Part shown: piece by piece, positions 1 through 918 of the stretch
Numbering within the stretch: the first letter of the stretch is position 1
Layout of the letters: every line of letters starts with the position of its first letter
Assembly (NCBI GenBank): GCA_029556545.1
Contig: JAKQEQ010000045.1
Location: forward strand, 1 to 62,968
Origin: Candidatus Hydrogenedentota bacterium
Lineage (GTDB): Bacteria; Hydrogenedentota; Hydrogenedentia; Hydrogenedentales; JAGMZX01
DNA length: 62,968 bases
Reading direction: 5' to 3'
The notes under the pieces: generated by a model
What the model was told of the DNA's origin: nothing
Database searches by the model: none
The model's input: the letters and a program-made list of their open reading frames with translations, nothing else
Program-made: the position numbers and the translations under genes

Positions 1-297
1 GGTACGGTGCGCTTCCAGTGGTACAAGGACGACGGCACGAAGGCGTTTGTGCCGCTGGCTGACGATGCCTTGCATACGGGCACGCAGACGACGGAGATGA
101 CCTTCGTCGAGATCGCGCAGGAAGACGAGGGCCTGTACCAAGTGGTGGTGTCGGACGACTTCACCAGCATCGAGTCGCAGGCGCAGTTGACGGTTGGCAC
201 GGCGTTGCCGGTGGCCGGTCTTGCCGGCGTTGCGGCGTTGGCGCTTGCCAGCGCGTTGGCGGGCGCGGGCGCGTTGCGGCGTCGCCGGCGGTGCTAG
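1..297 (+). CDS. C-terminal end of an Ig-like surface protein with a sorting or anchor tail (5' end outside window)
   Basis: The reading frame is open at the left edge and stops with TAG at 295-297, leaving about 98 residues. The first part is an Ig-like fold: FQWYKDDG, then DEGLYQVVVSDD, the usual Trp and Tyr core positions of bacterial Ig domains, ending in a QAQLTV strand. After that comes a short LPVAG motif, a hydrophobic Ala/Leu/Gly stretch of about 20 residues, and a terminal RRRRRC. This tripartite tail resembles the exported-protein sorting signals of PEP-CTERM or MYXO-CTERM type, but I cannot assign it to a named class. The protein is probably extracellular and anchored in the envelope. 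The rest of the protein is unseen, so its binding target is unknown. Confidence 0.75.
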   Translation, partial: GTVRFQWYKDDGTKAFVPLADDALHTGTQTTEMTFVEIAQEDEGLYQVVVSDDFTSIESQAQLTVGTALPVAGLAGVAALALASALAGAGALRRRRRC

Positions 298-329
298 GCA
301 GCCCGCTTCGCATCTGATTGCGTAGTCAG

Positions 330-365
330 GCCGCCGGTCCTGAAATAGGGGCCGGCGGCTTTGTG
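330..365 (+). terminator. Rho-independent terminator of the upstream gene
   Basis: An 11-bp stem (GCCGCCGGTCC at 330-340 with GGGCCGGCGGC at 349-359, one G-T pair) closes an 8-nt loop and is followed by TTTGT. It lies 33 bases after the stop of the Ig-like gene. The intron-like RNA begins immediately after the short T run. Confidence 0.75.
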
Positions 366-918
366 TGTGCCAGGCATGGCACTGTTCTTATGATGTGTAA
401 GTCTCTCTGCAGGCCCGGATAGGGGGAACTGTTAGCTGGACGGCAAGGGTGTCCACCGCGAGGTGGAATCTGAAGGATGCCGAAGGCAAATCGGCAGCTC
501 AATGAACAGAAATCGCATAGGAGGAAACGTACGCACCGGATGAGAAGGCCATTATCTTCAAGGAAATGCGCCAATTGGACATTCGAAGCGCTTGACTAAT
601 AGATACGGCGTAAGCTTCGTTGCATCCTCCGCCGGCAATGGGAGCGTGTCTACACCCGTCCTCAGAGCCTGATGGGACGTGGCTTGGACGCAGAGGGCGC
701 ATAGCGCTGCGCCACTAGCGGGCGCGACCCATGACGGAACGCCGGGGGCATTGCACATGAATCAGGCCTTCCCCAATAAGAACTTTGACAAGAGTGGACT
801 CGCATCGCTGCCCGATCAACTACACAGACTTCAACGTACAACATGAACCGTCGTGGTACGGAACCGTATGCCCGGTGGTGCGGAAGGATGGGGGGGACAA
901 CCCCGCCTCCCGCCCAAC
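365..918 (+). ncRNA. ORF-less group IIC intron, probably degenerate
   Basis: No protein gene fits 298-1024. The stretch carries group II intron landmarks in the correct order. There is a GTGTG 5' end with the GTGTGCCAGGCATGGCAC stem (365-382). Domain I pieces follow: GGAACTGTTAGC (425-436), GCAAGGGTGTCC (443-454) and GTGGAATCTGAAGGA (463-477), then a GAACAGAAATCGCATA segment. A domain V-like hairpin GAACCGTCG...CCGGTGGTG lies at 844-882, and a domain VI-like C-rich end runs to about 918. From memory, these match the Oceanobacillus iheyensis class IIC intron in sequence and order. Only about 280 nt separate the two ends, so the usual reverse transcriptase/maturase of about 420 residues is absent. 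The domain V triad reads CGT where IIC introns have CGC. The 3' boundary is approximate. Confidence 0.85.

Follow-up and report, generated by a model that had tools for sequence, protein, structure and literature searches.

Positions 365-918 of the window, the whole 62,968-nt stretch of Hydrogenedentota DNA analysed here, are almost certainly the relic of a class C (group IIC) intron that carried a reverse transcriptase (RT), was internally deleted and has drifted unconstrained. An intron of ~1.85 kb with its own RT would have entered by reverse splicing, behind the terminator of a gene for an Ig-repeat surface protein. One deletion would have begun immediately past the EBS1 loop of domain I and reached into the 5' part of the RT gene, a second would have run from that 5' part to the last ~60-85 RT codons, and the remaining sequence would have drifted without constraint. 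The relic probably neither splices nor moves; we infer that it is inactive because domains II and III and J2/3, which is part of the active site, are gone. The original prediction had labelled the element an ORF-less group IIC intron, a label we replace with that of an RT-carrying intron that has suffered internal loss and still contains a dead piece of its RT. Its parts are as follows.

325-362, + strand: intrinsic terminator hairpin of the upstream gene, the insertion target (GGCCGCCGGTCC...GGGGCCGGCGGC TTT; read directly)
365-561, + strand: intron 5' end and 5' part of domain I, through the putative EBS1 loop (GGCCATTATC); from the relatives' alignment, RF02001 and the 5' consensus
562-584, + strand: RT-coding island (codons around GKG.R.LGI, N-terminal RT region); from DNA alignment to relatives
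582-842, + strand: RT/maturase C-terminal pseudogene fragment; from DNA alignment, tblastn and translation
843-880, + strand: domain V, triad C-G-T instead of C-G-C; nhmmer profile match 844-910, 3e-15
881-918, + strand: degraded domain VI and 3' end (CCCGCCCAAC); from alignment to relatives, the profile match ending at 910

Intron identity and insertion site

Group II intron sequence occupies 554 bases on the + strand at 365-918, as seen in BLAST alignment to full-length introns of related genomes, and the boundaries at 365 and 918 are consistent with the alignment to relatives. The element opens with GTGTG at 365, and positions 365-379 (GTGTGCCAGGCATGG) match the class C 5' consensus GUNYGCCNRGCAUGG (PMC4028801) with zero mismatches. 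The domain I signature lies at about 443-475, and domains V-VI stand at 843-918, in the expected order. When the whole 63 kb window was compared with all Rfam families, RF02001 (group-II-D1D4-3) matched 452-556 on the + strand at 54.1 bits (cut-off 32; E = 4.5e-8 for this entire search), and no other family matched above its cut-off. Weak matches to NsiR4, mir-326, Pxr and others scored under their cut-offs and are attributed to chance.

RF00029, Rfam's general model of domain V, had no match in the window even at E = 10, a silence that carries little weight because this model misses most of the relatives too. None of 80 relatives was caught by a strict domain V regular expression. As the test for domain V, both were replaced by an nhmmer profile built from the relatives, which matches 844-910 (E = 3e-15). 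The succession of a GTGTG 5' end, a domain I signature and a domain V/VI within 554 nt, as originally read, is thus borne out by RF02001, the 5' consensus and the profile. The proposed Rfam check recovers the domain I region, and domain V is found by the relatives' profile.

The intron sits directly 3' of the terminator hairpin and TTT (325-362) of the Ig-repeat surface-protein gene, a hairpin left unlisted by a simple terminator scan because its T-run is short. Introns in three other genomes (G006, G034 and G035) and a stub in the sister species G040 likewise stand behind hairpins. IIC introns prefer sites behind terminators (PMC4424553, PMC4028801), and insertion directly behind a terminator (or attC), as expected of class C, is what we find here. 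The ends, the RT class of the relatives and the terminator-linked site support an origin in class IIC, and the earlier assignment to that class fits all three.

Window positions 1-361 are 99.2% identical to G000:C164:1948-2308 (L064), part of a second copy of the gene in the same genome, with 3 mismatches, all silent. That copy has the same hairpin and no intron, and the identity ends at the intron 5' boundary. The two upstream gene copies likely reflect recent duplication or gene conversion, although the window starts at a contig end, where assembly effects are possible. We found no precise empty site in the sister species G040, where the downstream gene is present at 84% and the upstream context is different. 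A separate class C 5' stub of ~113 nt does occur in that species (L053 832-945, G040:C73), behind another terminator, with a hydrolase-like gene starting after it; it is evidently another dead remnant in the same genus.

The putative EBS1 loop of the window copy is placed partly by comparison with the O. iheyensis intron sequence. With this mapping, the putative loop CATT does not pair with the 5' exon TTTGT, whereas the same loop in the G034 copies pairs ATG/CAT with the exon. In the O. iheyensis intron, EBS1 is AUAA and the exon UUAU (PMC3669008).

Internal deletions and the dead reverse transcriptase

Alignment with longer relatives breaks the element into three blocks. Window 365-561 corresponds to the first ~196 nt of the near full-length intron L039 (78.3% identity) and of L041 (78.6%). 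Window 560-584 corresponds to a stretch of the RT gene, intron positions 765-789, in the copies from G041 and G034 alike (84% over 25 nt), and window 582-910 to L040 (G041) from the RT C-terminus through domain VI (80.9% DNA identity over 329 nt). The deletion junctions on either side of the RT island lie at about 561/562 and 581-585. What is retained comprises intron positions 1-197, the island of 20-25 nt of RT codons, the last ~60-85 RT codons and domains V-VI. About 1.3 kb is absent from an intron of ~1.85 kb, apparently through two internal deletions.

The first deletion starts just past the EBS1 loop in domain I and ends within the RT ORF. The RT ORF of group II introns sits in domain IV (PMC4424553), so that deletion of the span from domain I to the ORF has taken the 3' part of domain I, domain II, J2/3 and domain III; J2/3 and the triad make up the active site (PMC3669008). 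A functional group II intron has domains I-VI all present, and here the 3' part of domain I, domain II and domain III are deleted. The Rfam results are of the same kind: RF02001 scores 54 bits in the window versus 124-150 bits in the best-preserved relatives, its alignment in the window contains many non-standard pairs in the 3' strand, and RF01998, which covers the next intron segment and scores 50-63 bits in the best-preserved relatives, is absent from the window.

The original prediction saw no reverse-transcriptase frame. This holds for an open frame, but from 582 to about 842 the sequence is a C-terminal piece of an RT, interrupted by stops. In the relatives' frame, 579-749 corresponds to RT residues 380-436, with 61% protein identity over 57 residues and four in-frame stops (TAA, TAG, TAG and TGA) by tblastn, and in the alignment an extra G produces a +1 frameshift near 751. 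The RT homologue in L041, open to the contig end, contains both RVT_1 and the maturase domain GIIM. Of its solved relatives, the GsI-IIC RT is the closest (489 bits; next 362). Placed by similarity, the RT of the relatives would belong to class C.

Two of these relatives have peculiarities of their own. The RT gene of L039 (858-2692, G034:C92) apparently lacks a short segment after the FFD motif, and the copy looks broken. In G041 (L041 1534-2142), the intron adjoins an IS200/IS605-type TnpA-like frame, recognised by eye.

Domain V, the 3' end and divergence

The domain V triad reads CGT rather than CGC, as had been noted from the outset. In the domain V-VI alignment, the position where the window has T is C in all 74 comparable relatives, which come from many phyla, and CGT is therefore a private change of the window copy. 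The change leaves a U-G pair, and the domain V hairpin still folds. Group II triads follow the rule AGC or CGC (PMC4424553), and the CGT of the window is neither. In a single copy with other lesions, we read it as probable damage rather than as a variant.

The branch-point region is CTAC in all relatives whose match extends that far and CCGC in the window. The 3' end (CCCGCCCAAC) departs from the class C consensus CCUACYCGAU (PMC4028801) at four of ten positions, UA included. The element is IIC by descent, and it falls short in three features tested for a functional group II intron (domains, triad and 3' end).

In a three-way distance comparison, the window branch has a length of 0.166 in domain I, 0.183 in the RT piece and 0.134 in domains V-VI, all rough estimates from small regions; the G041 branch has about 0 change in domains V-VI. 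On these rough figures, the ribozyme and the dead ORF appear to have changed at much the same pace (0.13-0.18). The RNA may nevertheless have been under some selection, as the 5' end, the EBS1 loop and the domain V hairpin are still recognisable in this one copy.

Retention of the remnant for a new role, as a small structured RNA or as a spacer or terminator element between the two genes, would be in keeping with the intact 5' end and the folding hairpin of domain V. We nonetheless consider it very improbable, given the similar divergence of ribozyme and dead ORF, the single copy in the genome and, in the sister species, the lack of an orthologous copy upstream of the downstream gene's ortholog. 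Scarcely any credence attaches to a minimal RNA, consisting of the IIC 5' domain I half and domains V-VI without domains II-III, that would still be transcribed and kept behind the terminator.

Mobility and comparison with known introns

The host genome is a 6.1 Mb draft of 195 contigs, 96% complete. RVT_1 has no match in it, with positive controls, although in a draft an RT might sit on a missing contig; the window relic is the only match in an RT protein search of this genome, and 365-918 has no second DNA copy there. The search of the genome for full-length copies with a maturase, proposed along with the original reading, therefore came back empty. Among 68 genomes of the phylum searched with 365-918, matches occur in 12, the host's own included. 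No match in the 67 others crosses the deletion junction, and the exact junction sequence was not found elsewhere in genome_contigs. Neither a related intron-encoded protein (IEP) in the genome nor copies sharing the junction, the marks of an ORF-less intron mobilised in trans, were found.

Full-length introns do occur elsewhere in the phylum. L047 1019-2930 (G035:C62) is a full-length class C intron behind a terminator, with consensus ends, and extra copies of its 5' end at other G035 sites suggest recent activity. Distant DNA matches on plasmids only reiterate the class C picture.

If the element were instead a working ORF-less IIC intron that the RT of a relative splices or mobilises in trans, as in Thermosynechococcus, its ends, domain V and terminator site would fit, and related genomes of the phylum do hold full-length copies. 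Against it, the putative EBS1 loop, as placed partly by comparison with the O. iheyensis intron, would not pair with the 5' exon now in place, both the RVT_1 and the RT protein searches leave the own genome without an RT, and the junction is shared by none of the 67 other genomes. Natural ORF-less introns, moreover, keep all but the domain IV ORF (PMC2882425), whereas the deletion here starts in domain I and domains II-III are gone. We regard this reading as hardly tenable. Of the two histories originally offered, mobilisation in trans is set aside, with no RT, no second copy, no shared junction and a deleted core, and the decaying remnant is upheld by the deletions, the stops and frameshift, and the changes in triad and branch region.

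The internally deleted relic shares with class C introns such as the O. iheyensis intron and GsI-IIC the 5' consensus, the domain I signature, the layout of domains V-VI and the site behind a terminator, and the RT of its relatives is nearest to that of GsI-IIC. It differs from them in lacking domains II-III, J2/3, the 3' part of domain I and most of the RT, in its triad (CGT, not CGC), and in its changed branch region and 3' end. The ORF-less introns TeI3 of Thermosynechococcus and C.te.I1 of Clostridium tetani resemble it in having no intact RT frame, and C.te.I1 also in residing in a genome without an RT, but both keep their ribozyme domains and splice, whereas the relic has not kept those domains. 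In trans-mobilised introns of the TeI3 type, the ORF in domain IV is lost and the rest kept (PMC2882425). The relic is better compared with TeI3n, a fragment from which a large internal portion has been deleted (PMC2882425), than with TeI3.

Truncated and fragmentary copies form the majority of bacterial group II introns (PMC4424553, PMC4028801), and the relic has no essential difference from them: it has a large internal deletion with both ends kept, it is a single copy, and its genome holds no full-length counterpart. It is an unremarkable new case among truncated group II introns, an ordinary genomic fossil. It adds a data point to a picture in which class C introns entered Hydrogenedentota at sites behind terminators and later disappeared from single lineages, and it serves as a warning that an internally deleted relic can pass for an ORF-less intron when its ends are intact and a domain V hairpin is present.
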